In this document: positions 1,257 to 53,935 of the stretch, piece by piece
Layout of the letters: every line of letters begins with the position of its first letter
Numbering within the stretch: the stretch's first letter is position 1
IMG/VR virus record: IMGVR_UViG_3300008107_000217
Coordinates: 1-55,778 of that record
Reading direction: 5' to 3' (one strand)
Length of the DNA: 55,778 nucleotides
Source: a virus
Notes under the pieces: generated by a model
The model's input: the letters and a program-made list of their open reading frames with translations, nothing else
Database searches by the model: none
Told to the model about the DNA's origin: nothing
Translations under genes and position numbers: made by a program

Positions 1257-1985
1257 TTAGATAGGTTCAGGTCGTTTTTCTAATTTGTAGCGTTTTCCTA
1301 AAAATTCACCATGCATTAATGATAGATAACTTAACACGCTTTCATCATCATAATCAATGAAATGATTAGGATTAGTAAATCTATAACGCCAACTCCAATG
1401 AGGTGATGTACCGTCAGTAGACCCTTTTACCCAATATTTTAAAGACGGGCTAGGATGTAATCCCGAAATACGGTTGAATAAATCATTCAGTTGTATAGCA
1501 AAATTATTTTCAACTTTTTTAGATTTTAGATATACTCTGAATCTATGTTTGGGGTTATTGACAAAAGACTTTACCCCTATAAAATTGCTAGTTTGTACTT
1601 CGGTATAATCATAATATATTCCCGGTTTAATGGTCTCAACAGTTTTTAACAAACTTAAATCATTACTAAAAAATGCTATTTTATTATGTTCTACTCTAAC
1701 TGTTCCTGCAACGTTTTCTTTGAAAGAATTGCGAAGTTCTATAAACAGTTTAAGAGCTTCTAAGTTAAAAGTTACAACAGGTAAATCTTCTTTTCTGATT
1801 TTTTTCCAACCTGTGGTAGCGTTATATCGCTTTATTAAACCCTCAATATTTTTTTCATATGTGGCATATCTTATACCCTCTATAGTGAATCGTACTCTAT
1901 ACTTATATTTACCATAGTAATTATCATCTCGGTAATCGAAAAAATCAATACCCGGAACGTCACTGACTGATTTCAATAATCCCAT
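1257..1985 (-). CDS. Protein of unknown function (about 242 aa)
   Basis: Not recognised. I use ATG 1985; a GTG at 1991 would add two residues. Either start lies inside the last codons of clpA (overlap about 26 bases), so it is probably coupled to ClpA. Two basic aromatic segments (YKYRVRFTIEGIRYATY near the N terminus and KHRFRVYLKSKKV in the middle) resemble each other and may be repeats of one beta-rich domain. The C-terminal part is rich in W, Y, H and F (YWVKGSTDG, HWSWRYRF, NHFIDYDDESVLSYLSLMHG), followed by a basic tail. No signal peptide, membrane segment or classic catalytic motif is visible. Position suggests cooperation with the DnaJ/ClpA pair, which is inference only. Confidence 0.6.
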   Translation of the reverse strand: MGLLKSVSDVPGIDFFDYRDDNYYGKYKYRVRFTIEGIRYATYEKNIEGLIKRYNATTGWKKIRKEDLPVVTFNLEALKLFIELRNSFKENVAGTVRVEHNKIAFFSNDLSLLKTVETIKPGIYYDYTEVQTSNFIGVKSFVNNPKHRFRVYLKSKKVENNFAIQLNDLFNRISGLHPSPSLKYWVKGSTDGTSPHWSWRYRFTNPNHFIDYDDESVLSYLSLMHGEFLGKRYKLEKRPEPI

Positions 1986-4236
1986 TCTCACCCACCGTTG
2001 CTGTTAATTTAGGTTGTACATCAAACATAATCTTGTAATCTACTAAATTGATATTGATATGTGCACCTTTGATTCTATCAAATAGAATCTTCTTACTTAA
2101 AGGAACTCTAATAAGTTCATCAATTTTTCTACTCAATGGTCTAGCACCCATCTTGCTATCATATCCATGCTCTGCTAGATATTCTACTACAGGTTCAGTC
2201 AGATTGATTGTGATGTCGTTATTTTCTTTTAACGATTTCTTCAACTCATCGGTAAACTTGATAACAATCTTCTTAATAGCCAACATATCAAGTTTAGTGA
2301 ACTTACATATCATATCTAACCGATTACGGAACTCTGGTTTGAAGAACTCTTTTAATGCTCGGTCATCATCACCTGTACGTTCTTGATTACCAAACCCGAT
2401 CTGATTTCGTTCACTATCACTTGCACCTAAATTACTTGTTAAGATAATGATAGTATTCTTGCAGTTAACTTCTTTACCATTAGATCCGGTAATACGTCCT
2501 TCGTCTAACATCTGCAAGAAGATATTAAATATATCAGGATGAGCTTTTTCAACTTCATCAAACAACAATATACTGTGAGGATTCTTGCTCAAGTCATTAA
2601 TCAATCGTCCACCTGATACTTGGCTATCATTGAATCCAACATAACCCGGTGGGGGACCAATCAAACTAGAAACTGAATACTTCTCTGAATACTCTGACAT
2701 ATCATATTTGAGTAAGGGCATATCTAAACTACTACTCAATAATCTAGCTAGTTCAGTTTTACCTGTACCAGTCGGGCCTAAGAACAAAAAACTACTCATT
2801 GGTCGTGTTTGATTACCGATACCTGCAAACGACACATAGATACGCTCAAGTACTTTATCAACTGTATCTTCTTGACCATAAAGCTTATTCTTAATGTTAG
2901 CTTCTAAACTAAAGATACGTTCATAACTATCACTGTTTAGTTTATCAGCAGGAACTTTAGTCATGCGTTCAACTTGTTCATATACTAACTCTTTTGTAAT
3001 ATCTACTTGTTGATTACCTAATACACGTTGTTTGGCACAAGCCGCGTCAATCAAATCTATGGATTTGTCAGGATTCTTACGGTCATGCATATAACGTGTA
3101 GCACTATCAACTGCCGCTGTAATTGCATCATCGGTAATGTTTACTGAGTGGAAGTCATTCAATCGTGTGCTTAGACCTTTAAGGATACGAATAGTAGAAT
3201 CACGATCCGGCTCATCTACGCCCACACGATAGAATCTACGCATCAATGCACGATCCTTCTCAAATGATTCATAGTACTCTTCCCAAGTAGTGCTAGCAAT
3301 AACTTTCAAGTTACCTTTAGTAATAGCCGGTTTAATCATGTTAGCAAAGTCAACACTACCATTGTTAGCTGAACCACTGCCTTTCATAGTATGCGCTTCA
3401 TCAATGAATAGTACTGCTTTCTTTTTAGTAACTAATGCTTCTAGTACCGATTTAATCTTTTCTTCAAAGTCACCACGATATTTAGAACCAGCAAGTAATG
3501 ATCCCACTTCAAGCGAATACAACTCATGATCCTTTAAGAACTTGGGTACCTCATCGTTGATGATTTTACTTGCTAGACCTTCTGCAATTGCAGTTTTACC
3601 TACACCAGGATCACCTACCATCAATACATTTGATTTAAATCGTTTAGCAAGAACGTTAACTATGTCATCTACTTCTTTAGTACGACCTATCATTGGTTCA
3701 AGTTTACCTTGACGGGCCAAATCAGTTAAGTTGGTTGTATATTCTTCCAAGATTTCATCAGCCCGATCGGTAGTTAATGGTGCTTCGCCTTCATTGTTTT
3801 TGTAGTATTTTTGCCAGAATGGTATAAATTCGTTTTTATTAATACCATACTTTAAGAAGAAGTAATGTGCGTGTGTATTTGTTTCGTTACTGATGCTAAG
3901 ATACAAATCAATAGTTGTAACAAATTTACGACCAGTAAACAATACTTGTGTTACCGAACGATTCATTACACGTTCTAAGCTATTTGTTTTACGTGGTTGA
4001 ATTTCTTGTTCAATATCAGAAGATGCTTCAATACTACGTTGGTTATCTAGGTATCCACTTACATCTTTAACCATAGTTGCAGTATCAACTCCAAAGTCGT
4101 CTAAAACTTTACTAAAGGGTGAATATGTTATTAGAGACAATAATAAATGTTCAATAGTGCAATATTCATGTCTACGAACTTTTGCTAGGCCTATTGCCTG
4201 TTCAATAATATGTTCAATTTCTGGGCTATGATTCAT
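1960..4236 (-). CDS. clpA: ClpA-like AAA+ protease unfoldase subunit
   Basis: The 758-residue protein has the complete Hsp100/ClpA plan: Clp N domain (IEHIIEQAIGLAKVRRHEY), AAA-1 with Walker A GDPGVGKTAIAEG and Walker B VLFIDEAH, pore loop KYRG, then AAA-2 with Walker A GPTGTGKTELAR, DEVEKAHPD, pore loop GYVG and arginine finger FRNRLD. There is no ClpB-type middle coiled coil. The tripeptide I-G-F at residues 613-615 lies where ClpA and ClpX carry the IGL/IGF loop that docks ClpP, so it is predicted to feed substrates to a host ClpP. No clpP is in the window. It follows dnaJ by 18 bases with an AGAGGTAA ribosome site and is presumably co-transcribed from the promoter at 5026-5053. Confidence 0.95.
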   Translation of the reverse strand: MNHSPEIEHIIEQAIGLAKVRRHEYCTIEHLLLSLITYSPFSKVLDDFGVDTATMVKDVSGYLDNQRSIEASSDIEQEIQPRKTNSLERVMNRSVTQVLFTGRKFVTTIDLYLSISNETNTHAHYFFLKYGINKNEFIPFWQKYYKNNEGEAPLTTDRADEILEEYTTNLTDLARQGKLEPMIGRTKEVDDIVNVLAKRFKSNVLMVGDPGVGKTAIAEGLASKIINDEVPKFLKDHELYSLEVGSLLAGSKYRGDFEEKIKSVLEALVTKKKAVLFIDEAHTMKGSGSANNGSVDFANMIKPAITKGNLKVIASTTWEEYYESFEKDRALMRRFYRVGVDEPDRDSTIRILKGLSTRLNDFHSVNITDDAITAAVDSATRYMHDRKNPDKSIDLIDAACAKQRVLGNQQVDITKELVYEQVERMTKVPADKLNSDSYERIFSLEANIKNKLYGQEDTVDKVLERIYVSFAGIGNQTRPMSSFLFLGPTGTGKTELARLLSSSLDMPLLKYDMSEYSEKYSVSSLIGPPPGYVGFNDSQVSGGRLINDLSKNPHSILLFDEVEKAHPDIFNIFLQMLDEGRITGSNGKEVNCKNTIIILTSNLGASDSERNQIGFGNQERTGDDDRALKEFFKPEFRNRLDMICKFTKLDMLAIKKIVIKFTDELKKSLKENNDITINLTEPVVEYLAEHGYDSKMGARPLSRKIDELIRVPLSKKILFDRIKGAHININLVDYKIMFDVQPKLTATVGENGIIEISQ

Positions 4237-8076: not shown

Positions 8077-9000
8077 TTAACTGGTAAGTTCAATAATTGT
8101 GGCTGCTAGATTGATTTCTGGAATACCCACAAGACTTAAGTTTGCCAAACCATTACGAATTATAATAACTGACGCATCTTTGCGTTCTTGTGAATTTCCC
8201 CACAAATCTAAATTTTCGTACATCCATCTGTATGTATCTTCAATACGACTTGGATACAACGCAAGATATTGAAGTAGTTGTTGACGACCTTCAATAATCT
8301 TACCGGACTTAAACAACTGTGTAGCTTCTGCTAACAAACTGTCTTCTCCGTCTGTTGTAGTGGATGTATTGATAAGTTTACCAGTACTACTGTTGACTTG
8401 AAGTTGATTCAAACACTTACGTAAGTCTGGATATGTAGCACGTATATAGTTATCCAATACATCTAAATCAAATTCAACACCCTCAGTTAACAACACTTTT
8501 GCCGCACGTGTAGTAAACTCTGTTCTGTCTGTCTTTGTGATGTGAAACTCATGACATCTGCTCTTAAGTGCTGGTATAATACGATGCTGATAGTTACATG
8601 TTAGAATGAATCGTGCAGTCATATGATACGCTTCCATATCATTACGCAATGCTGCCTGACCAGCTGGGGTCAAGTAATCAGCTTCATCTAATAATACGAC
8701 TTTAAACTTACCAAATGGCATTGTTTGCACAAATCCTAAAATTTTGTCACGTACAACGTCAACACTATTTTCACGTGAAGCATTGATTTCTAGTGTATCG
8801 TATTCATTAATACCTAGTTCATTAATCAATATTTTTGCTAGTGTGGTCTTACCTGTACCTGGCTCACCACTCAACAACAAGTGAGGGATACTCTGAGTCT
8901 TAACCCAGCCAGTAACCTGTTGTCGTTGATTGTCATCTACAAAAACATAGTCCTCAATTATATTAGGACGATACTTCTCAACCCATAGTTGATTCTTCAT
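8077..9000 (-). CDS. 44: Sliding-clamp loader large subunit (T4 gp44-like)
   Basis: RFC/gp44-type AAA+ protein of 307 residues. It opens with LWVEKYRP, typical of RFC proteins, then has Walker A SGEPGTGKTTLAK, Walker B VVLLDEADYL, sensor 1 FILTCNY and the SRC arginine-finger motif (LKSRCHEFHI). A helical collar domain fills the C terminus. It would load the phage clamp on DNA; neither gp45 nor gp62 was found in the window. Its first codons overlap the stop of the 100-residue gene by four bases (ATGA). Confidence 0.94.
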   Translation of the reverse strand: MKNQLWVEKYRPNIIEDYVFVDDNQRQQVTGWVKTQSIPHLLLSGEPGTGKTTLAKILINELGINEYDTLEINASRENSVDVVRDKILGFVQTMPFGKFKVVLLDEADYLTPAGQAALRNDMEAYHMTARFILTCNYQHRIIPALKSRCHEFHITKTDRTEFTTRAAKVLLTEGVEFDLDVLDNYIRATYPDLRKCLNQLQVNSSTGKLINTSTTTDGEDSLLAEATQLFKSGKIIEGRQQLLQYLALYPSRIEDTYRWMYENLDLWGNSQERKDASVIIIRNGLANLSLVGIPEINLAATIIELTS

Positions 9001-9308: not shown

Positions 9309-9677
9309 TTATACTTTGTCACTCATTGTTAAATCGTAGACGGGCTCGTCACTTACAAGTAGTATATCATTAATATCTACTCTGCGTATGGTGTGTTTGC
9401 CCGTTTCATCTTCAATATCGACACCTCGAGTCCATCTTCCGTGTGATATACAGATCCATTTACCCGGAACTAATTCAGGATCAGTTTGATCGGGTCCTAC
9501 TGCATAAATCTGCGCCCAACGAGGTCTGATACCTGATGACTTCATATCATCGTTTGGTAAAATGATACCACTGTGCGTGATACGTTCATCAAATGTCATG
9601 TCATATACAATGACATGTTCACCTAATGGTTTAAATTGATCCTTGTTGAATCTATGTGGTTCAAATGCTAATTTCAC
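9309..9677 (-). CDS. 31: GroES/gp31-like co-chaperonin
   Basis: The 122-residue protein shows the GroES beta-barrel pattern: FKPLGEHVIVYDMTFDERIT, SGIILPNDD (mobile-loop region), AQIYAVGP, a PGKWICISHGRW segment and the closing RVDINDILLVSDE. T4 gp31 replaces host GroES so that GroEL can fold the major capsid protein; the same job is inferred here. With ClpA and DnaJ it gives the phage three host-proteostasis partners. Its ATG overlaps the stop of the 101-residue gene. Confidence 0.85.
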   Translation of the reverse strand: MKLAFEPHRFNKDQFKPLGEHVIVYDMTFDERITHSGIILPNDDMKSSGIRPRWAQIYAVGPDQTDPELVPGKWICISHGRWTRGVDIEDETGKHTIRRVDINDILLVSDEPVYDLTMSDKV

Positions 9678-9979
9678 TTTTTAATTTCCTCGTCATCATC
9701 TTCTTCAAATTCTAATTCTTCAGCAGTCAACTCGTTTTTATCGATTGTTTTATCTGCTTCAATAGGTGATCGATTCAAATTGTTAGGAGCAGTAGTAACT
9801 GTTTTATTGTAAGAGTTTTTGATTCTATTAGTAGAATCACGTACTATCTTACCATGAGGATCAATAATATCCCCTCTTGCATTAACATTCATATTGCCCA
9901 CAGCACGTGTCTTTTCATTCTTTGTAGCTAATGTGGACATATCAATTGTTTTACCTCTTGCTGATTTGTACATTGACAT
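9674..9979 (-). CDS. Small conserved protein with acidic tail (101 aa)
   Basis: Basic, largely disordered protein starting MSMYKSARGKTIDMSTLATK with repeated Asn, and a strongly acidic end (LEFEEDDDEEIKK). A proper AAGGAG site precedes the ATG. It overlaps the GroES-like start by four bases. Similar short proteins occur in marine T4-like phages. Function unknown. Confidence 0.6.
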   Translation of the reverse strand: MSMYKSARGKTIDMSTLATKNEKTRAVGNMNVNARGDIIDPHGKIVRDSTNRIKNSYNKTVTTAPNNLNRSPIEADKTIDKNELTAEELEFEEDDDEEIKK

Positions 9980-39193: not shown

Positions 39194-42100
39194 TTACCTA
39201 GCAATTGGTACCGGAACGCCTACATTACCGGCTACATCAACTCCAACTGTTATTTTATAGACACCGAAGCCATCTGTAATATACAATCCATCTGCCCCAC
39301 CTAATAGTTGCCAGTTAGGTGCTGTTGGCCAGTTAGAAGTATTTGCATCAGATGTATCTTTAATCACAACACTAGCTAAGTATGCATTTCTAAAGAATGA
39401 ACTACCTAATGCTTCATCCTCACTATCACCCAAGTTAGTAGTAAAGTCGCTTACTGGAATAAACGAATGTGAGTTAGGTGCTGTTGAATCATTCTTTGCT
39501 AATACTATTGCATCCGTGTTAGCAGTATTTGCTAACTGGGGAGCTCCAAAGCCTGCAGCTTGTAATGGTACTATCCCTACTAATGCATCAAATACTAATA
39601 TACCTGAACCTGAATGTGCAGGCTTATCAAGTATACTGAATCCAGTAGGATCAGTCGATATATACATATTGGTCACTGAACCATCTAATATCAAAGCATC
39701 AGTTGAATTTATACTATTTGTGCCTGATATACGTAATGAAGTTAAGTTACCTACACTAGTAATATTACTTTGTTGTGCTCCTGTAACATATCCAGCATAC
39801 GCAGAATAGTTTGCGTTTGCTACGTCACCGCTAATAGCATTTCCATCAATACCGGTTATGTTGCTACCATCACCATACAAGTAATTTGCAGTTACAATAT
39901 TAACTGTTTCGATGTTACCGATATTAGCATTACCGGTTACTTCTAACACTGTTAGATTACCAAGACTAGTAATGTTAGGCTGTGCATTTACTGAAACAGT
40001 ATTTGCAATATCAGCGTTAGATACTGCACCTAATATGTTACCTGCAGGCAAGTTTATTAAATTAGCACCGCTACCGATAAAGAAGTTAGCAATAACTGCA
40101 TTACCTAAGTTAGCATTACCACCAGTAATATTACCAGTTACTGTCAAGTTTGTTAAGTTACCTACACTAGTGATATTAGGTTGTGCATTAGTTGTTAGCG
40201 TACCAGTCATTAAGGTTACTGCTAATGTGTTTGTAGAATTGTTAAATGTAAAGTCTGCACTACCAGTAAATGCACCACTTACATTAAACTGTACAGAATT
40301 TGCGTTAGAGTCAGGAGATTGAGCCGATACCCAAGTTAAATTGCCGGTTCCATCTGTTCTTAAGAATTGACCATTTGCTCCACCCGTAATATTAACATTA
40401 CCTACATTACCCAGTGTGGTAATACCTGATACAGTTAAGTTAGATAATGTACCTAAACTAGTTATATTAGGTTGAGCATTATCATTAACTGTATTTGCAA
40501 CTAATGCAGAATTAGCAGAGCCTGCATATGACGCAAAGTTTGCATTTGCAACTTGTCCTACATTAGCGCCATTGATATTAGTTAGATTAGCACCACTACC
40601 AACAAAGAAGTTAGCAACAACTGCATTTGCACCACTTAAATTACCTGCAGTGATATTACCAGTGACAATTAAACTTGTTAAGTTACCCACACTAGTAATA
40701 TTAGGCTGTGCGGCTGTTGTAATAGTACCTGCTATGTTAGCTACTGTTAATGTATTTGAACCACTATTGAAAGTGAAGGCTGAACTTGCACCAAATGCAC
40801 CAGCATCATTAAATTGAATTTCGCTATTAGCACCGCCGGGTGTGCCACCACCACCACCAGGTGTAGCCCATGTTAAAGTACCTGCACCATTTGTTCTTAA
40901 GAATTGACCACTAGTACCGCCGGGTATCTTAACGTTAGAAACGCTAGCTGTCTGTAGTATACCATTAACAGTTATATTTGGTACGGTTGCTAAGAAATTT
41001 ATAGGATCATATGTTAATGCGGCGTCGCCACCGAATGACCCATTATTGTTGAATTGAATGAATGTGTTTGAACCGCCCGGTGGTGTAGAAGTAGCTAATG
41101 CCGGCTCCCATGATAGTCCACCTAATCCATTAGTAGTTAACACATAACCATTAACACCACCTGAAATTCTAACATTGGCTGCATTACCTAAATAACTAAT
41201 ACCATCTACAGCTAATGTGCTTAGATTACCAATACTAGTAATGTTAGGCTGTGCGGCTGTAGTTAATGTACCGCTTACTGTATTTGCAGTTACTGATGCA
41301 ACATTGATAGTGTTGGTTGAAAGATACAAGTTACCTGTTATACTAACACCATTAGTGTTAGATGAAATATTTTGTGTTCCTAAGTTGATTGTAGTTCCAC
41401 TTAGATACAAATCTCTCCACTTAAGTGAACTAGAACCCAAGTCAAAAGTTTCATCAGATGAAGGGACTAGGTTAGATTGTACACGACTTGTAACTCTAAG
41501 ATTACCTACGTTTGCTAAACCAGTACTGAATAAATTACCGACGTTAGCATTACCTGTTACTGCTATTCTACCTGAAATATTAGCGTTGCCACCAGTAATG
41601 TTTCCTGTAATAGTTGCATTATTAGCTACAATAATACTAGTGAATGCACCTGTGTTAGGTGTACCTGCACCCACTGTACCGTTATGTGGACCTATCAAAT
41701 TACCGTATATATTACCTGATGTAACATTAATATTACCGGCGTTAGTAAGTTCGCCGGTAACTTCATTGTATACAAAGCCGGAACTACCACCAAAGGTAGT
41801 ACCACCTTGATTGTATTGAATTTGACTGTTAGCACCACCTGGTGTTCCAGAAACAACGTTGCCAGTTAAGAATGCTGCCCAAGTTAAGTTACCTGTACCG
41901 TCTGTTTGTAATATATAACCGTTAGTACCGCCGCCTAACTTAACGTAGTCAGCATGACCTAAGTGAACATTGACATTATTATATTGACTAGTATTACCAG
42001 GCTGTTTAGCGTTTCCACCTGCATTAACCCACTCTAAGTTAGTAGAGTTTGCGATGTTTTTAGCAACAACTAACTGCCCGGGAACAACGTTTGATAAATT

Positions 42101-42334
42101 AATATTGCCGTTACCAGTACCTGTAATTTTTCCGAAACTTAAATTACTAACCTCAGTGAGAATTTCTGTTTGTGTAGTAGTACTTGAATTAGCGGCAGGA
42201 TGTATTACAGGATCGTTACCTATATATATACGCCTGTCATCAGTTGCAAAACCGATCTCCCCGATATCTAATTGGGGTAAGTCAACGTTTGCACCTGTAC
42301 GGTGTTGAATTTTGGAGATTTGTACGATAGCCAT
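39194..42334 (-). CDS. Repetitive tail-fibre-type protein (1046 aa)
   Basis: N-terminal anchor VQISKIQHRTGANVDLPQLD with GEIGFATDDRRIYIGND is the standard head of many T4-like marine fibre and adhesin proteins. The shaft has about four modules: GGANSEIQFNDAGAFG-type, then F-x-x-x-x-N-T-L-x-V, then QPNITSVGNLTSLIVTGN (six QPNIT-like copies) and FFVGSGANLTNI. The C-terminal 180 residues are unique (ILDKPAHSGSGILVFDALVG, NWQLLGGADGLYITDG). It shares bead units with the 1324-residue fibre. The start codon lies in an 11-bp hairpin next to the late-type promoter. Confidence 0.76.
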   Translation of the reverse strand: MAIVQISKIQHRTGANVDLPQLDIGEIGFATDDRRIYIGNDPVIHPAANSSTTTQTEILTEVSNLSFGKITGTGNGNINLSNVVPGQLVVAKNIANSTNLEWVNAGGNAKQPGNTSQYNNVNVHLGHADYVKLGGGTNGYILQTDGTGNLTWAAFLTGNVVSGTPGGANSQIQYNQGGTTFGGSSGFVYNEVTGELTNAGNINVTSGNIYGNLIGPHNGTVGAGTPNTGAFTSIIVANNATITGNITGGNANISGRIAVTGNANVGNLFSTGLANVGNLRVTSRVQSNLVPSSDETFDLGSSSLKWRDLYLSGTTINLGTQNISSNTNGVSITGNLYLSTNTINVASVTANTVSGTLTTAAQPNITSIGNLSTLAVDGISYLGNAANVRISGGVNGYVLTTNGLGGLSWEPALATSTPPGGSNTFIQFNNNGSFGGDAALTYDPINFLATVPNITVNGILQTASVSNVKIPGGTSGQFLRTNGAGTLTWATPGGGGGTPGGANSEIQFNDAGAFGASSAFTFNSGSNTLTVANIAGTITTAAQPNITSVGNLTSLIVTGNITAGNLSGANAVVANFFVGSGANLTNINGANVGQVANANFASYAGSANSALVANTVNDNAQPNITSLGTLSNLTVSGITTLGNVGNVNITGGANGQFLRTDGTGNLTWVSAQSPDSNANSVQFNVSGAFTGSADFTFNNSTNTLAVTLMTGTLTTNAQPNITSVGNLTNLTVTGNITGGNANLGNAVIANFFIGSGANLINLPAGNILGAVSNADIANTVSVNAQPNITSLGNLTVLEVTGNANIGNIETVNIVTANYLYGDGSNITGIDGNAISGDVANANYSAYAGYVTGAQQSNITSVGNLTSLRISGTNSINSTDALILDGSVTNMYISTDPTGFSILDKPAHSGSGILVFDALVGIVPLQAAGFGAPQLANTANTDAIVLAKNDSTAPNSHSFIPVSDFTTNLGDSEDEALGSSFFRNAYLASVVIKDTSDANTSNWPTAPNWQLLGGADGLYITDGFGVYKITVGVDVAGNVGVPVPIAR

Positions 42335-48316: not shown

Positions 48317-48324
48317 TATTTATC
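48317..48324 (-). promoter_or_regulatory. Late-type promoter GATAAATA
   Basis: The minus strand reads GTGATAAATACTCAATAGGG. Its box overlaps the last codon of the helicase gene, splitting early replication from late genes. The sequence around it is nearly the same as at 19032-19039. Confidence 0.65.
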
Positions 48325-49750
48325 ACTTTTTAAGATTGTTCAACATTGATTTTAATTTACTGCCCTGAACATCTGCCATAACACGATTTGTAACTGGTTC
48401 TAATTCTGATTCTATTTTATTATTAAATCCAACATTATTGTCAACTACAGTAGATTGAGTCCGTAATTTACTCATAATATCATTGGGACTTGAATGAGTT
48501 TGTTGCTTATCCCCATATCCCTCAGGATCGCTATCTGTGATACGCATGGTATCAATACTATATTCTAAATCAATTTTCTGACCTACGCCTGTTGAGCTAC
48601 GTGATTTCATGCATTGAATCTGATACTTCCCACGCTCACGCATACTACGACTTGTAAAGATACCAAACACATTATCTGCTGTATTAATCTTACTGATACC
48701 ACCTGCAATGTGACTATGATCGAACTCAATTTCTTCAACAGCACTACGATTTAACTGAGATGCTGTGACCATAAGAATACCTAATTCTTTTGCTAAATTA
48801 CGTAATTCTTCTGAAACATATTTGTCTTTAATAAACTGATCGTTAGGATTAACTTTGACTGATACAGGCATAACGAGATCCAAATAGTCAATCATTACAA
48901 AGTCAACTTTGATTCCTGTCTGAATCTGAACTTCTTTCAAATATGAACGAATGTCATTAACATTACTTTGTGCAGGCAAACCTTTGACACGATATTGTCC
49001 TGACTTCTTACCTACCATCTTAACTCTAAGTTCAGTGCCCTCAATATCTTTACGAATATCTCGGGTACTCATACTTGTTAACATTGCATCTGTACGCAAT
49101 GACGTTAGTTCTTCGCTAAGTTCCAATGAAACATAAACACCACTTAATCCTTGTTGTAACCAGTTCAATGCAATGTTCATCATGACCAATGATTTACCTG
49201 AACCTGAGCCACCTGCAAAGATATTCAATTCACCACGACTAAAGCCACCATACAACAATCTATCCATCTGGGGCCAACCTGTACTAACTTGTCCACCTGC
49301 ATTAAAATATTTGTTGATACGACTTTTAGGATCAGCGAAATAATCTGTACCCATGTCTCTTTGCAAACTGATTTGTACCGCATCTTTGATTAGTTTCTCA
49401 ACAGGACCAAAATCTCCCTTCTCAAGCATATCGGCTGACTTAAGAATTGCACGTTCTAGTTCTTGTCGTTTAGTAAAGGATTCAAATTCTTCTAAGAACC
49501 ATTCTGTATGTTTTTCTCCGAATTCTTCGATTAGTGCAATGTCCATTCCTGTTGTTGCTTTAATCTGTGATATATCCGGAAGTATACTATACTTCTCGCT
49601 GTATTCTTTCATAAACTCAGCGACTGGTCTTATCGATTTATCAAAGTTGTCAGCATTCATAATGTTCATAACTCGGGTATACAATTCCGAATTAGTTAAC
49701 ATCATCTGCAAAAACAATCTTTGTACGTCTACGTTATAGTCCTTTAGCAA
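48323..49750 (-). CDS. 41: Replicative DNA helicase (gp41/DnaB family)
   Basis: RecA-like DnaB-type core with Walker A FAGGSGSGKSLVMMNIA, GVYVSLELSEELTSLR (helicase motif 1a), VDFVMIDYLDLVMP (Walker B) and KELGILMVTASQLNRSAVEE (motif 3/4). N-terminal helical domain as in T4-like gp41. The C-terminal 80 residues are flexible. It unwinds the fork with primase gp61, encoded just upstream with a 17-base overlap. Confidence 0.94.
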   Translation of the reverse strand: MLKDYNVDVQRLFLQMMLTNSELYTRVMNIMNADNFDKSIRPVAEFMKEYSEKYSILPDISQIKATTGMDIALIEEFGEKHTEWFLEEFESFTKRQELERAILKSADMLEKGDFGPVEKLIKDAVQISLQRDMGTDYFADPKSRINKYFNAGGQVSTGWPQMDRLLYGGFSRGELNIFAGGSGSGKSLVMMNIALNWLQQGLSGVYVSLELSEELTSLRTDAMLTSMSTRDIRKDIEGTELRVKMVGKKSGQYRVKGLPAQSNVNDIRSYLKEVQIQTGIKVDFVMIDYLDLVMPVSVKVNPNDQFIKDKYVSEELRNLAKELGILMVTASQLNRSAVEEIEFDHSHIAGGISKINTADNVFGIFTSRSMRERGKYQIQCMKSRSSTGVGQKIDLEYSIDTMRITDSDPEGYGDKQQTHSSPNDIMSKLRTQSTVVDNNVGFNNKIESELEPVTNRVMADVQGSKLKSMLNNLKK

Positions 49751-50708
49751 TTTTCTTCCTGTTCATTTCTATTTTAATTTTACTATTTGTTGCACTCTGT
49801 AGTATACTCATTAGGGTTGGTAACTTCCCATATCTTACTACAGCATCATTAACATCTTTGATATCAGCTTCCCAATTAGGTAAGCTAACTTGATAACCCA
49901 ATTCTAATGCTCTGTCACACATCTTTAGTCCTGTCTTATCTCTGTCAGGAACTACAATAATTTGTTTATTTAATGTTGATATTAATTGTGCTTGGTCATT
50001 GCTAATGTCATCGTGCATAACTGCGATACCGTCAATGCTTAATGCGTCAAATATACCTTCTGTCAATATACACGCACTCCATTGATTCTTCTGTATATCA
50101 ATATTGAATACGTAACCGGGTTGTTGTTCGTTAATGTATTTGGGGATTTTGTTGTCTAAGAATCTACTAGTGTGACCAACGATTTTATTCTTATATGTAT
50201 AAGGGATAACAATACGTTGTGACATTCTACCAAACTCACGAGGAGTTACTAAGAAGGGGTAGTCATTATAATTTATCTTGCGTTTACTTAGATAGTCTAT
50301 GTATACTTTGTGCGCTGGATTATTAGGATCAATCAAATCACCATCAGGCAATTGATGATCCTTGAATTTCATTTTGAAATTTATTCGTTTGGGCTGAGTG
50401 AAATCTAATATGTCTTTATGTGCTAGACTTTCTAAGCTCCACTTTTGTATTTGGTCAGTATCAACACCTAACCATGTTAGTAGTTGTTTTGCTTTAGGGG
50501 TAATTGTTTTACCTAATGTAAAGTTACAGCTAAAGCTACAGTTAAAACAATGATAGGTCCAATTAGTAGGGCCATCGAATTTAATTCCGCCCCTATGACG
50601 TTTATCTTGTTTATGACCACGATGACTACAACACGCCGCATTGAAGCTGTACCAACCACTGTGTGTTAGTTTACGTTTACCCGGTATCAGAGATAGAATA
50701 TCAAACAT
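49734..50708 (-). CDS. 61: DNA primase (gp61-like, TOPRIM)
   Basis: Zinc domain ACCSHRGHKQDKRHRGGI then YHCFNCSFSCNF at the N terminus; TOPRIM motifs CILTEGIFDALSI and IIVVPDRDKTGLKM in the middle; conserved basic residues in GRMSQRIVIPYTYKNKIVGH. It makes RNA primers for the gp41 helicase. The -10 box TACAAT lies six bases before the ATG: leaderless mRNA predicted. Confidence 0.92.
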   Translation of the reverse strand: MFDILSLIPGKRKLTHSGWYSFNAACCSHRGHKQDKRHRGGIKFDGPTNWTYHCFNCSFSCNFTLGKTITPKAKQLLTWLGVDTDQIQKWSLESLAHKDILDFTQPKRINFKMKFKDHQLPDGDLIDPNNPAHKVYIDYLSKRKINYNDYPFLVTPREFGRMSQRIVIPYTYKNKIVGHTSRFLDNKIPKYINEQQPGYVFNIDIQKNQWSACILTEGIFDALSIDGIAVMHDDISNDQAQLISTLNKQIIVVPDRDKTGLKMCDRALELGYQVSLPNWEADIKDVNDAVVRYGKLPTLMSILQSATNSKIKIEMNRKKIAKGL

Positions 50709-50746: not shown

Positions 50747-51508
50747 TTAACGGACAACCAGACTAGTAATATCACCAGTTGTTACGTTAGCATATTGTGC
50801 CCTTACGTAAGGATGGTATCCCTCACATAAGAAATATAAACTTTCGGTTGCGTTTGCAAATGTATTTGCTTCGTGTATGTTATACCAATCACCATTTGGG
50901 ATAGTAGATCCTTGTATTACTACATCGCCGGTAAAGTTGTCCAATGACATTTGCACACCCAATATATCTGTGAATAATGGATTGTCGTATGTGCTGAATA
51001 CACTGCTGTAGAATGTTACACCTACATTGCTTATGGGTGCGTGACTTGGGATAGTTACAGGAATAGTATTAATATATCCTGGTAATACACTATCAATAAC
51101 TTTTACTGTACCACGTGCATTTGCATCGGGACTAACAAAGGCAGCTGTATGTGCAGTTCCCTCTACTACCTCTAGTGAATAGAAACACATTTGAGGTTCT
51201 ACATCTACAATATCAGTAGCATCTAGCTCTAATTGAGTTATACCAGTCAATGGCAATAAATTGGTTAATTGCTTACTAAAATATACCATAGAACCATCAT
51301 ATTTGATAAGTCTAAAAGAGATAGTTTTACCGGTAATATTTACTGGTTTCTGTTCTTGGTTTAGGAACTGAAACTGAATCTTGTTTTCCACGCCCTTGTT
51401 TAGGGTTAAATCTTTTGCATACACGATATCATATCTCCTATTGCTAGAGCCGGAATACAACACTACTGTTTGACGTTGTGTGTAATAATAAACATTTGTT
51501 GAATACAA
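50747..51508 (-). CDS. BppU-like virion protein (253 aa)
   Basis: Starts with TTG (51508) seven bases after AAAGGAG. Residues 35-140 look like the N-terminal domain of baseplate upper proteins (NKIQFQFLNQEQKPVNITGK, ISFRLIKYDGSMVYF, QLELDATDIVDVEPQMCFYS). The C-terminal domain (VVIQGSTIPNGDWYNIHEAN, CEGYHPYVRAQYANVTTGDI) resembles the 111-residue protein at 722-1057. Beta-rich virion component, probably baseplate or fibre connection. Confidence 0.65.
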   Translation of the reverse strand: MYSTNVYYYTQRQTVVLYSGSSNRRYDIVYAKDLTLNKGVENKIQFQFLNQEQKPVNITGKTISFRLIKYDGSMVYFSKQLTNLLPLTGITQLELDATDIVDVEPQMCFYSLEVVEGTAHTAAFVSPDANARGTVKVIDSVLPGYINTIPVTIPSHAPISNVGVTFYSSVFSTYDNPLFTDILGVQMSLDNFTGDVVIQGSTIPNGDWYNIHEANTFANATESLYFLCEGYHPYVRAQYANVTTGDITSLVVR

Positions 51509-51588: not shown

Positions 51589-51969
51589 ATGCTTCATAAC
51601 GACTTTTTCAAACGACTAACCGAGAACCACCCCTTTATAACGGTCTGCTCATACGCAGGCCAAGATTATGTAGGCATAGTTCAAAATAGAGATGATGTAG
51701 TAACTACCATCTACGACTATGGATCTATTATAGACCAAGTAATACGAGAAAAATTCTTAGAACTAGGGGATATATGGTGGTGGGAATCTAATAGATTAGT
51801 GCCCATTAATATGTTCTTAAAAGAAGATTGGATGATCTTTAAACCCTATCTAAGAACATTTAACAATAAGAGTCTGACTATATTACACGGTCCTATATGT
51901 AGTATGTTAGAACTAAGCAAACGTAAGTCAAAGCGTAAAAGTATTACCCTGGTCAAGAGGATATCCTAA
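51589..51969 (+). CDS. Conserved T4-like protein (126 aa)
   Basis: Begins MLHNDFFKRLTENHPFITVC and has AGQDYVGIVQNRDDVVTTIY, LGDIWWWESNRLVPINMFLK and a basic tail KRKSKRKSITLVKR. I know the motif W-W-W-E-S-N-R and the head from hypothetical proteins of T4-like phages; not characterised. It ends with a 42-base convergent overlap on the DnaE-like gene. Confidence 0.65.
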   Translation: MLHNDFFKRLTENHPFITVCSYAGQDYVGIVQNRDDVVTTIYDYGSIIDQVIREKFLELGDIWWWESNRLVPINMFLKEDWMIFKPYLRTFNNKSLTILHGPICSMLELSKRKSKRKSITLVKRIS

Positions 51970-52533
51970 TTCATCAATCAAATTCATATGTACGACAACT
52001 AAATGAGCATATGCAATTGCGTGACTTTTCTTAAAACTATACCCATCAGTGCCTTTATCCCATACAGTTTTTGCAACTTCAGCCCACGTTAAACCAATTA
52101 AGTGTTTCTTTGCAGGACGAATGATAGACAAGAACATAGCTAGTCTAGGGATGCTATCTATAGGTTCTTTCATTTTCTTAATGCTATTATAGTGATTGTT
52201 TAAGTGAATCAAGTTTTCTACAAACTTTGCATCCTTTAACTTATCCCAATCAGGTTCACACATTAAGCACTTTAGATGTTCTTCACTTCTAACATAGTTA
52301 TAAACATAAACATTTAACATATCTAATTTGAGATATCCACGTTGTTCTGCCTCAGAATAATCGATGTTAGCCATATCATTGATAGCATCGTAGGGTATAT
52401 TAGTCACGTGAACACCTGTTGCATGTTTACGAATAGGATTAACCTTACGCATTGCCGCAGGCGTATGCTTGATAAGACTTAATATCTTATCTCGGTCACC
52501 AAAGTCAATATCAATGTCTGAATTAAATTTCAT
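51928..52533 (-). CDS. DnaE-like (C-family polymerase) palm, C-terminal catalytic half
   Basis: Residue 4 onward, NSDIDIDFGDRDKILSLI, copies DnaE PDFDVDFCMDGRDRVIDYV with the paired catalytic Asp (D8 and D10). KHATGVHVTNIP corresponds to SGTHAAGVVIS, GYLKLDMLNV to VKFDFLGL with the third catalytic Asp (D71), and YSFKKSHAIAYAHLVV to YGFNKSHAAAYALIAY. It begins where the 9991-10512 protein ends. Finger and OB parts of true DnaE are absent. Overlaps the DEDD exonuclease start by four bases, so the catalytic half is encoded next to a 3'-5' exonuclease. Function unproven. Confidence 0.75.
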   Translation of the reverse strand: MKFNSDIDIDFGDRDKILSLIKHTPAAMRKVNPIRKHATGVHVTNIPYDAINDMANIDYSEAEQRGYLKLDMLNVYVYNYVRSEEHLKCLMCEPDWDKLKDAKFVENLIHLNNHYNSIKKMKEPIDSIPRLAMFLSIIRPAKKHLIGLTWAEVAKTVWDKGTDGYSFKKSHAIAYAHLVVVHMNLIDELGYPLDQGNTFTL

Positions 52534-53093
52534 TTAGGTGGTGCAACTAGGCCTGCTTTAATTAATTTAGTATACGCTTTTTGTACAACAATAGCCTGAC
52601 GTTCAGCATCTTCTACTGCTTTGTGACTAGTAGAATGCCCACCGTCTTTAAGACTAACACCTGCAATTTCATATAATGTACGTGTATCTCTAACTGTCCA
52701 GAAAGGCCAGGGGATAGGATTAGGTTTGTCTGATGTTTGTCTCCAAGCAGACTCCATAACTACACAATCAAATGATGCACCATTACTCCAAACAGCACGA
52801 CGGTTCCAACAGAACTTATAAAGAGTCTCCATGCACTCGCTAAATGGCAAACGTCCCCCGTCTCCCATAGCTTCTTCAAGTGCTTCAGGGCTCTGCTCAC
52901 TCCACCATCGTAATGTATCTTCATTGATACTCCTGTTATATATTTCTGTTTGATCCTCTACTGTAGGACGTAGTTCTAATCGTTCAACTACGCCACTACC
53001 TTTAGGATCGAATCGTACCGCACCGATGGTTAAGATAACACAGTTAGGTGTTGTATCTAAACTTTCAATGTCAATCATAATGTCATTTGCCAT
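52530..53093 (-). CDS. DEDD 3'-5' exonuclease (RNase T / DexA-like)
   Basis: Rv2179c/DexA-type exonuclease: IMIDIESLDTTPNCVILTIG with the first Asp-Glu pair, NGASFDCVVMESA with the second Asp, and SHKAVEDAERQAIVVQKAY with the final His...Asp. Family acts on DNA or RNA 3' ends; T4 DexA degrades single strands. Its neighbour downstream is the DnaE-like catalytic half. Confidence 0.88.
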   Translation of the reverse strand: MANDIMIDIESLDTTPNCVILTIGAVRFDPKGSGVVERLELRPTVEDQTEIYNRSINEDTLRWWSEQSPEALEEAMGDGGRLPFSECMETLYKFCWNRRAVWSNGASFDCVVMESAWRQTSDKPNPIPWPFWTVRDTRTLYEIAGVSLKDGGHSTSHKAVEDAERQAIVVQKAYTKLIKAGLVAPPK

Positions 53094-53935
53094 AATAATG
53101 CCGCTCCAATTACACCTGCACTGTCACCTAATTTTGCTCTATATATAGGTGTGTTGAATTCATCATTGAATATATTCTTTTTAACAGATTCAATGCCTTG
53201 AGTGAATAATATATCATTATTACTGATTCCTCCGCCAATTACAATACAATCCGGGTCTAATACTTGAACTAAATTAGAAACTGCCAACCCAAACTTATTT
53301 AAAAAACATTCTTGTATCTCTGTCATTTCCATATATTCTTTTGTGGATAGTTTTTTATTTGTAAGATTGTATGCCCATGTGTCAATTCCTGATCCGCTTA
53401 ACCAAGTTTCTACACATCCAATTCTACCGCAACGACACATTATATTGTTACTAGGGTCTAATGTTGTATGTCCCCATTCACAACTTATGTTATGAAATCC
53501 TTTATGTAGCATTCCATTAATCACTATGCCGCCTCCCACACCCGTACCTAATATCATTCCGAATACAGTATTATATCCATTGCCTACCCCTAACAATGAT
53601 TCTGCTAAAGCAAAACATTGACTATCGTTGGCAATTTGTATCTTACGATTTAATCTAGTTTCCAACATACCTACAAAATCTGTATCGTTTAAAAATCCTA
53701 TGCTAGAATTTATCATTAAACCGGTTCTATTGCTTATGGATCCCGGCATACATACTCCCAATGTATGTTCTGTTGTATTAGTATACAGTATAGCTTTATT
53801 ATAAAGAACTTCTATTTCTTCGTATACAGAACCTGTAGGAAGACGTTCTCTAAACAATACCTCATTTGTAGTTGATAACACACAACACTCAATTTTTGTT
53901 TTACCAATATCAACACCAATCTTATTCATAATCAT
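53075..53935 (-). CDS. ROK family sugar kinase
   Basis: N-terminal IGVDIGKTKIECCVL phosphate loop, catalytic base in IANDSQCFALAESL, ATP site LGTGVGGGIV, and the ROK zinc signature EWGHTTLDPS...CRCGRIGCVETW with the His and three Cys. C terminus DCIVIGGGISNND and DSAGVIGAALL completes the actin-like fold. ROK enzymes phosphorylate hexoses such as glucose, fructose or N-acetylsugars. Such a gene is unusual for a T4-like phage; ATG 53935 used (53929 also possible). It overlaps the exonuclease by 19 bases. Confidence 0.88.
   Translation of the reverse strand: MIMNKIGVDIGKTKIECCVLSTTNEVLFRERLPTGSVYEEIEVLYNKAILYTNTTEHTLGVCMPGSISNRTGLMINSSIGFLNDTDFVGMLETRLNRKIQIANDSQCFALAESLLGVGNGYNTVFGMILGTGVGGGIVINGMLHKGFHNISCEWGHTTLDPSNNIMCRCGRIGCVETWLSGSGIDTWAYNLTNKKLSTKEYMEMTEIQECFLNKFGLAVSNLVQVLDPDCIVIGGGISNNDILFTQGIESVKKNIFNDEFNTPIYRAKLGDSAGVIGAALLWQMTL

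Follow-up and report, generated by a model that had tools for sequence, protein, structure and literature searches.

Two distant genes of an uncultivated virus predicted to encode complementary halves of a minimal C-family DNA polymerase palm

Can the palm of a C-family DNA polymerase be divided between two proteins whose genes lie far apart in a phage genome, and would such a pair be an enzyme? This question is raised by a 55,778-base record of an uncultivated virus, which was analysed in its entirety and which we call the window. The preliminary description of this DNA had claimed that two genes about 41 kb apart encode the two halves of a DnaE-like palm. Both open reading frames (ORFs) are indeed present, on the same strand and with 41.4 kb between them:

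51928-52533, minus strand: the C-half, 201 amino acids, predicted to carry the C-family polymerase palm strand with the catalytic aspartates D6/D8/D71, the proximal fingers and the steric-gate helix
9991-10512, minus strand: the N-half, 173 amino acids, predicted palm portion that carries the nucleotide-binding motif GRGS and stops where DnaE has FERFLN

Sequence profiles and structural models confirm the prediction that the C-half and the N-half are complementary halves of one C-family (DnaE/PolC) polymerase palm. The arrangement is the same as that of the split minimal PolIII alpha described by Iyer et al. in 2021 in "group 2.2" jumbo phages (PMC7824862); judged by the consulted passages of that paper, there is no difference in kind. 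The window pair is therefore a new member of a system whose split has already been published.

Both window proteins recur at 100% identity in a 180-kb IMG/VR contig (G001), and IMG/VR holds 323 stretches related to the C-half and at least 587 related to the N-half. Both halves are under purifying selection, with a median dN/dS of 0.082 for the C-half (432 pairs) and 0.074 for the N-half (75 pairs); the pairs had at least 75% protein identity and an estimable dS of at least 0.1, and they share sequences and are hence non-independent. Given these relatives and this selection, chance or artefact as the origin of the two ORFs is ruled out.

The relationship to C-family polymerases is found by several kinds of comparison. 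The N-half matches Pfam PF07733 (DNA_pol3_alpha) at E 6.3e-9 and phrog_11127, annotated as "DNA polymerase", at E 1.2e-40. The C-half has no Pfam match up to E 1, and it matches phrog_11778, also annotated as "DNA polymerase", at E 2.7e-57. Profile-profile comparison (hhalign) with a reference of nine sequences, E. coli DnaE and eight homologues from phages or plasmids, aligned residues 34-144 of the C-half (probability 97.0, E 1.2e-10) and residues 102-173 of the N-half (probability 95.9, E 6.2e-9). Sequence-only profile searches of the PDB were uninformative for the halves: PolIII alpha was not recovered for the C-half up to E 1, and for the N-half it appeared at E 0.31, ranked under unrelated chains.

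AlphaFold2 models of the C-half and the N-half (pLDDT 88.8 and 88.3, respectively) were aligned (VIA) to PDB candidates supplied by Foldseek, in which PolIII alpha was top-ranked, with modest best E-values (7.5e-3 for the C-half and 2.6e-2 for the N-half). Over residues 1-198, the modelled C-half aligned, with long stretches skipped, to E. coli PolIII alpha 397-790 (2hnh, Z 8.2, 192 residues, 3.9 Å), over residues 1-200 to PolC (3f2b, Z 9.8, 195 residues, 3.3 Å), and to the Taq enzyme with Z 9.1 (3e0d); down to row 14, its fold ranking contains nothing but DNA polymerases, after which Z drops to 3.3. For the N-half, residues 73-173 aligned to E. coli 277-393 (4jom, Z 10.8, 98 residues, 2.8 Å), the match to 5lew reached Z 12.1, and the 12 listed rows are without exception DNA polymerases. 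In reading these values, it is important to consider that a structural Z below about 8 may reflect a common arrangement only; the best Z for both halves is above that. The PDB ranges matched by the two halves abut at E. coli 393/397, which is the split. A DnaE-palm match had been expected for each protein, and both indeed match PolIII alpha, by profile as well as by fold.

Residues 1-66 of the N-half are predicted to form strands and helices, mostly with good confidence (residues 1-4 low), and lie outside every listed structural match. Foldseek was also run against viral models. Among the best 50 of 179 matches, the first 20 targets have 374-1474 amino acids, 12 of them being named DNA polymerase or PolIII alpha and 8 being nameless. 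No second minimal palm was recognised in these best 50 of 179, where known C-halves of about 200 amino acids are likewise absent.

The residues that would form the active site can be placed in both proteins. In the C-half, D6, D8 and D10 are equivalent to E. coli D401, D403 and D405, H37 to H511, K69 to K553, D71 to D555, R139 to R639, H171 to H760 and Y175 to Y764. In the N-half, R142, G143 and S144 are equivalent to R362, G363 and S364, and E108 to E328. The stretches D6-D10 and F167-Y175 were placed by motif and matched fold range, and the remaining residues by profile alignments, which were thinned by identity. The catalytic triad had earlier been assigned to D8, D10 and D71. We retain D8 and D71 and replace D10 with D6; the triad is then D6/D8/D71, corresponding to D401/D403/D555, the metal ligands of the E. 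coli enzyme (PMC3919608). According to the same source, D405, the equivalent of D10, is absolutely conserved across DnaE groups and is Asn in PolC.

These residues are highly conserved among relatives, as counted in distinct proteins, i.e., with identical proteins and two fragments of the C-half, only 142 and 78 amino acids long, left out. Positions 6, 8 and 10 hold Asp in 87 of 89 C-halves, and the other two sequences (L233 and L245) are cut by a contig edge. K69, D71, R139 and H171 are conserved in 89/89 C-halves, and G141, R142, G143 and S144 in 107/107 N-halves. Every complete sequence thus retains the catalytic carboxylates, GRGS and the counterparts of K553 and H760, even where identity to the protein of the window is as low as about 31%. 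The last of these, H760, is the proposed steric gate in E. coli (PMC8485763).

Other parts of the polymerase are lost or altered. From D10 to H37 there are 27 residues in the C-half, compared with 106 in E. coli (405 to 511). We take the thumb to be located in this interval of the E. coli protein, and the difference in spacing therefore indicates that the thumb is missing. Similarly, the spacing that corresponds to R639 to F756 is 28 in the C-half and 117 in E. coli, so that the C-half lacks the distal fingers, to which Q687, E688 and R709 belong; R710 likewise falls within the missing segment, and R396 falls at the split. The fingers and PHP had been described as absent. This holds for PHP, whereas the fingers are truncated rather than absent, since the fold match reaches E. 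coli 790. The finger profile PF17657 matches in the records of 8 of 21 relatives, in each case inside the C-half gene and twice at the curated cut-off; in the window there is no match up to E 1. PHP (PF02811) was found in 0/20 records including the window, while a control was found in 14/14 genomes; among these records, the window and the contigs from IMG/VR are fragmentary. Above its cut-off, PF07733 matches nothing but the N-half, which it finds in 11 of the 12 records searched; two weak, sub-cut-off matches, one of which has internal stops, were set aside. A separate third gene supplying fingers or PHP was considered, and none was found by domain search of the records.

In addition, the nucleotide pocket is changed. 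The position of E. coli Arg390 (N-half residue 170) is Glu in 106/107 N-halves and Asp in 1/107, and it is Arg in 9/9 DnaE sequences. R390, R362, R709 and R710 are said to interact with dATP (PMC4374717), although this is a weak source, because it is a modelling paper that, in its consulted part, gives D457 and not D555 as the third aspartate. The dNTP-contacting arginines R390 and R709 are consequently not retained: position 390 is acidic, and the segment with R709 is missing. Two lysines of the C-half are nearly invariant, namely K142 (88/89, with Arg in 1) and K168 (86/89, with Arg in 3); at the equivalent positions in E. coli numbering, 642 and 757, Lys occurs in 1/9 and 0/9 DnaE sequences, respectively. 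K142 and K168 may compensate for the lost arginines. Because R390, R396, Q687/E688, R709/R710 and the thumb are altered or missing, the grip on dNTP and DNA must differ from that of DnaE, and activity is not assured.

Canonical C-family enzymes are single polypeptides that include PHP, palm, thumb and fingers (PMC3666897). With E. coli DnaE/PolIII alpha and PolC, the pair has in common the palm fold, the Asp triad, GRGS and the equivalents of K553, R639 and H760. Unlike them, it consists of two polypeptides without PHP, thumb or distal fingers, has Glu or Asp at position 390, and lacks R396, Q687, E688 and R709.

If the two proteins belong together, they should be found together. Searches with tblastn of 50,697 phage records gave counts that vary with the query: relatives of the C-half were found in 63 or 64 records and relatives of the N-half in 58 or 66, and a third N-half query reached 99 records, including Streptomyces phages and other phages outside the group. 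Among the tblastn matches listed, 63 records have the C-half, 60 have the N-half, 60 have both and none has the N-half only. With the profile search added, the N-half is present in 62 of the 63 listed C-half records; for instance, two 141-kb circular Alishewanella phages that had only the C-half by tblastn yielded an N-half match in the profile search (E about 2e-14). The pair is therefore not confined to genomes above 200 kb. A profile search of 24 records chosen for the C-half found the N-half in 22. The two without it, whether by tblastn or profile for the first and by profile for the second, are an unverified 109-kb Klebsiella record and a 139-kb IMG/VR contig. We take both for fragments; genomes in the genus of the Klebsiella record are about 346 kb, and in its relative RaK2 (346 kb) both halves are present. 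It should be kept in mind that the profile-tested records were preselected for the C-half, and that the N-half without the C-half was assessed only in the tblastn matches listed, where it stood alone in 0 of 60 records; six records of one of these searches lie beyond its listing. By tblastn and profile, the two families occur together across phages and not independently, as the preliminary description had anticipated. The halves as independently occurring genes are ruled out by this co-occurrence.

In 22 of 22 pairs, the two genes are on the same strand and about 11-224 kb apart in record coordinates, a distance at which no operon links the halves. The split point is constant. All 128 N-half ORFs stop at most 2 residues from the end of the profile match, and the Met closest to the Asp motif of the C-half precedes it by 5 residues in 96 of 124 ORFs. 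No fused ORF was found among these 124 C-half and 128 N-half ORFs (252 in total, 91 and 107 being distinct, with repeated loci included).

The genes around the two halves of the window are as follows:

51589-51969, plus strand: convergent small gene of phrog_11637 (unknown function), overlapping the 3' end of the C-half gene by 42 bases
52530-53093, minus strand: DEDD (Rv2179c-like) exonuclease gene (PF16473, E 2.1e-33)
49734-50708, minus strand: gp61-like primase, downstream of the C-half (phrog_47, E 4.2e-32)
48323-49750, minus strand: gp41-like DnaB helicase, downstream of the primase (phrog_19, E 1.7e-70)
9674-9979, minus strand: small gene of phrog_14844 (unknown), directly after the N-half
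9309-9677, minus strand: GroES-like co-chaperonin (Cpn10; PF00166, E 5.8e-6; phrog_931, head morphogenesis)
8077-9000, minus strand: gp44-like sliding-clamp loader, near the N-half (phrog_168, E 1.1e-72)

Each half lies in a conserved replication cluster, the C-half with primase and helicase and the N-half with the clamp loader. Among 108 IMG/VR C-half loci, 78 of which extend at least 2.8 kb downstream, a primase homologue is present in 79, a helicase homologue in 60, and a gene like that at 50747-51508 lies downstream of the C-half in 87. The phrog_11637 gene stands beside the C-half in 98/108 of these loci and in 12/14 named phages; so constant a neighbourhood suggests that it is linked with the C-half. 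For the N-half, 103 IMG/VR loci were available (four contigs are counted twice, and 75/103 extend at least 2.8 kb downstream). The phrog_14844 gene follows in every one of them, a median of 15 bp past the N-half ORF; a GroES-like gene is near the N-half in all 103 as well, and the clamp loader in 91. Annotated phages have matching gene orders, with extra genes in between in Phosso. In XacN1 and CM1, no such neighbours were found within 3 kb of the C-half and 1.5 kb of the N-half.

The exonuclease gene was thought to abut the C-half gene. The DEDD gene is indeed adjacent, but it overlaps the start of the C-half gene by 4 bases. A homologue is upstream in 74/108 IMG/VR C-half loci, and in none of 14 named phages' C-half loci (E 1e-4, flanks of 1-20 kb). 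The exonuclease is thus conserved as a neighbour in near relatives only, and it is a possible functional partner of the C-half, conceivably for proofreading.

Some further genes of these records deserve mention. In the Alishewanella phage Slickus01 (L261, OQ508957.1, 141 kb), the C-half is flanked by a replication factor C-like gene, 1.4 kb upstream, and by a primase/helicase gene on its downstream side. The N-half is only about 8.5 kb further upstream, so that the two clusters are close together in this phage. In the window, a ROK-family kinase-like gene (53075-53935, minus strand, PF00480, E 8.8e-60) overlaps the exonuclease gene. ROK proteins are unusual in phages; this gene has no PHROG match up to E 1, and it is upstream in just 5 of 108 relatives' C-half loci (3-kb flank). 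The window also encodes a ClpB-like double AAA+ ATPase (1960-4236, minus strand; phrog_4871, with AAA_2 and ClpB_D2-small) and a 1046-amino-acid protein (39194-42334, minus strand) with a weakly Mtd_N-like N-terminus (25.0 bits against a cut-off of 26.3).

The host genome of the pair was expected to encode a family-B polymerase (PolB). Among the relatives, PolB was found in 14/14 named phages, 3/7 IMG/VR contigs and 2/2 further records. It was not found in the 55.8-kb window fragment itself, nor in the 180-kb contig G001. The earlier proposal, a minimal C-family palm divided between two proteins in a phage with PolB, is, as regards the palm, supported by the profile and fold matches and by the joint occurrence of the two families.

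Given these observations, our preferred reading, to which we assign a probability of about two in three, is that the two proteins join non-covalently into a heterodimer that is one minimal C-family (DnaE-like) nucleotidyltransferase and serves as an auxiliary DNA polymerase beside the family-B replicase (gp43). The N-half would contribute the GRGS nucleotide-binding helix. The C-half would contribute the aspartate triad for metal binding and Lys69 (E. coli K553), together with the beginning of the fingers and a helix whose His171 (E. coli H760) would select for deoxyribose. Judging from the modelled fold, a single half would have an incomplete active site. The auxiliary polymerase would probably be of low processivity and might work, e.g., on primers, in short gaps or at the fork. 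What has been shown is the homology, the complementary coverage of the fold, the joint occurrence, the conservation of catalytic residues, the purifying selection and the replication-gene surroundings, whereas the physical complex, its catalysis and its role at the fork are what we infer.

Several other readings have to be weighed against this one. The heterodimer might have the C-family fold and a changed job, such as end tailing, extension by a few nucleotides or transfer to another substrate. The acidic residue at position 390 in 107/107 N-halves, the loss of the thumb and of the R709 segment, and the new, nearly invariant K142 and K168 all fit such a change. However, the steric-gate His is kept in 89/89 C-halves, which suits dNTP selection (the role of H760 is from PMC8485763), and the gene context is that of replication; we consider a changed job unlikely, albeit worth keeping in view. 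Loss of the dNTP-contacting arginines and of the thumb would also be expected of a catalytically inactive palm that acts as a structural or regulatory subunit, or as a decoy, of the phage or host replisome. A decoy, which the preliminary description had entertained, would be expected to lose some of the catalytic carboxylates, GRGS or the K553/H760 equivalents, and every complete sequence keeps them; with dN/dS low as well, the decoy is not favoured, and we regard an inactive palm in general as improbable.

The distance of about 11-224 kb between the genes, and the C-half without N-half in 2 of 24 profile-tested records, could mean that the two proteins function independently and merely resemble halves of one domain. 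Against this stand the fixed split point at the N-half ends and in the Met spacing, and the matched PDB ranges, which abut; the two exceptional records, moreover, are those taken for fragments. We therefore regard independent function as very improbable. Within the heterodimer reading, a more far-reaching version is that the pocket is rewired, with the acid at 390 and K142/K168 replacing the triphosphate arginines R390/R709, and that the two-subunit enzyme forms a class apart, the smallest known among C-family nucleotidyltransferases, acting on a substrate of its own at the fork beside PolB. This version is speculative, and we would sooner doubt it than adopt it.

Parts of this family have been annotated before. 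The "PolIII alpha" CBB_328 of phage CBB (PMC5259590) and gp316 of Atu_ph07 (PMC6102473) are N-halves of the same family; in the consulted passages of these papers, the C-half is not recognised for either phage, and CBB_328 is called truncated. Cyanobacterial intein-split DnaE (PMC3919608) resembles the pair in that DnaE is encoded by two genes, and differs in having an intein at its split. The pair has no room for an intein, because N-half ORFs end at the profile match and, in the majority of C-halves, a Met stands 5 residues ahead of the motif. In the open-licence PMC literature, as far as its texts were consulted, we found no bench study of a split PolIII alpha, and the consulted parts of PMC12926913 and PMC3656037 contain nothing on the split. 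As for Iyer et al., the loss of the thumb, the change of Arg390, the new lysines and the gene clusters are not mentioned in the consulted passages (PMC7824862).

If active, the pair would be the smallest C-family polymerase core known to us, would reveal which parts of DnaE are dispensable, and would place C- and B-family polymerases within one phage. Iyer et al. suggest that the split PolIII alpha models an ancestral form (PMC7824862). Position 390, with its conserved Glu or Asp in place of Arg, and the loss of the thumb offer a concrete handle on whether the pair polymerises at all, and the new, testable element is an altered nucleotide pocket alongside an intact metal and sugar-selection site.
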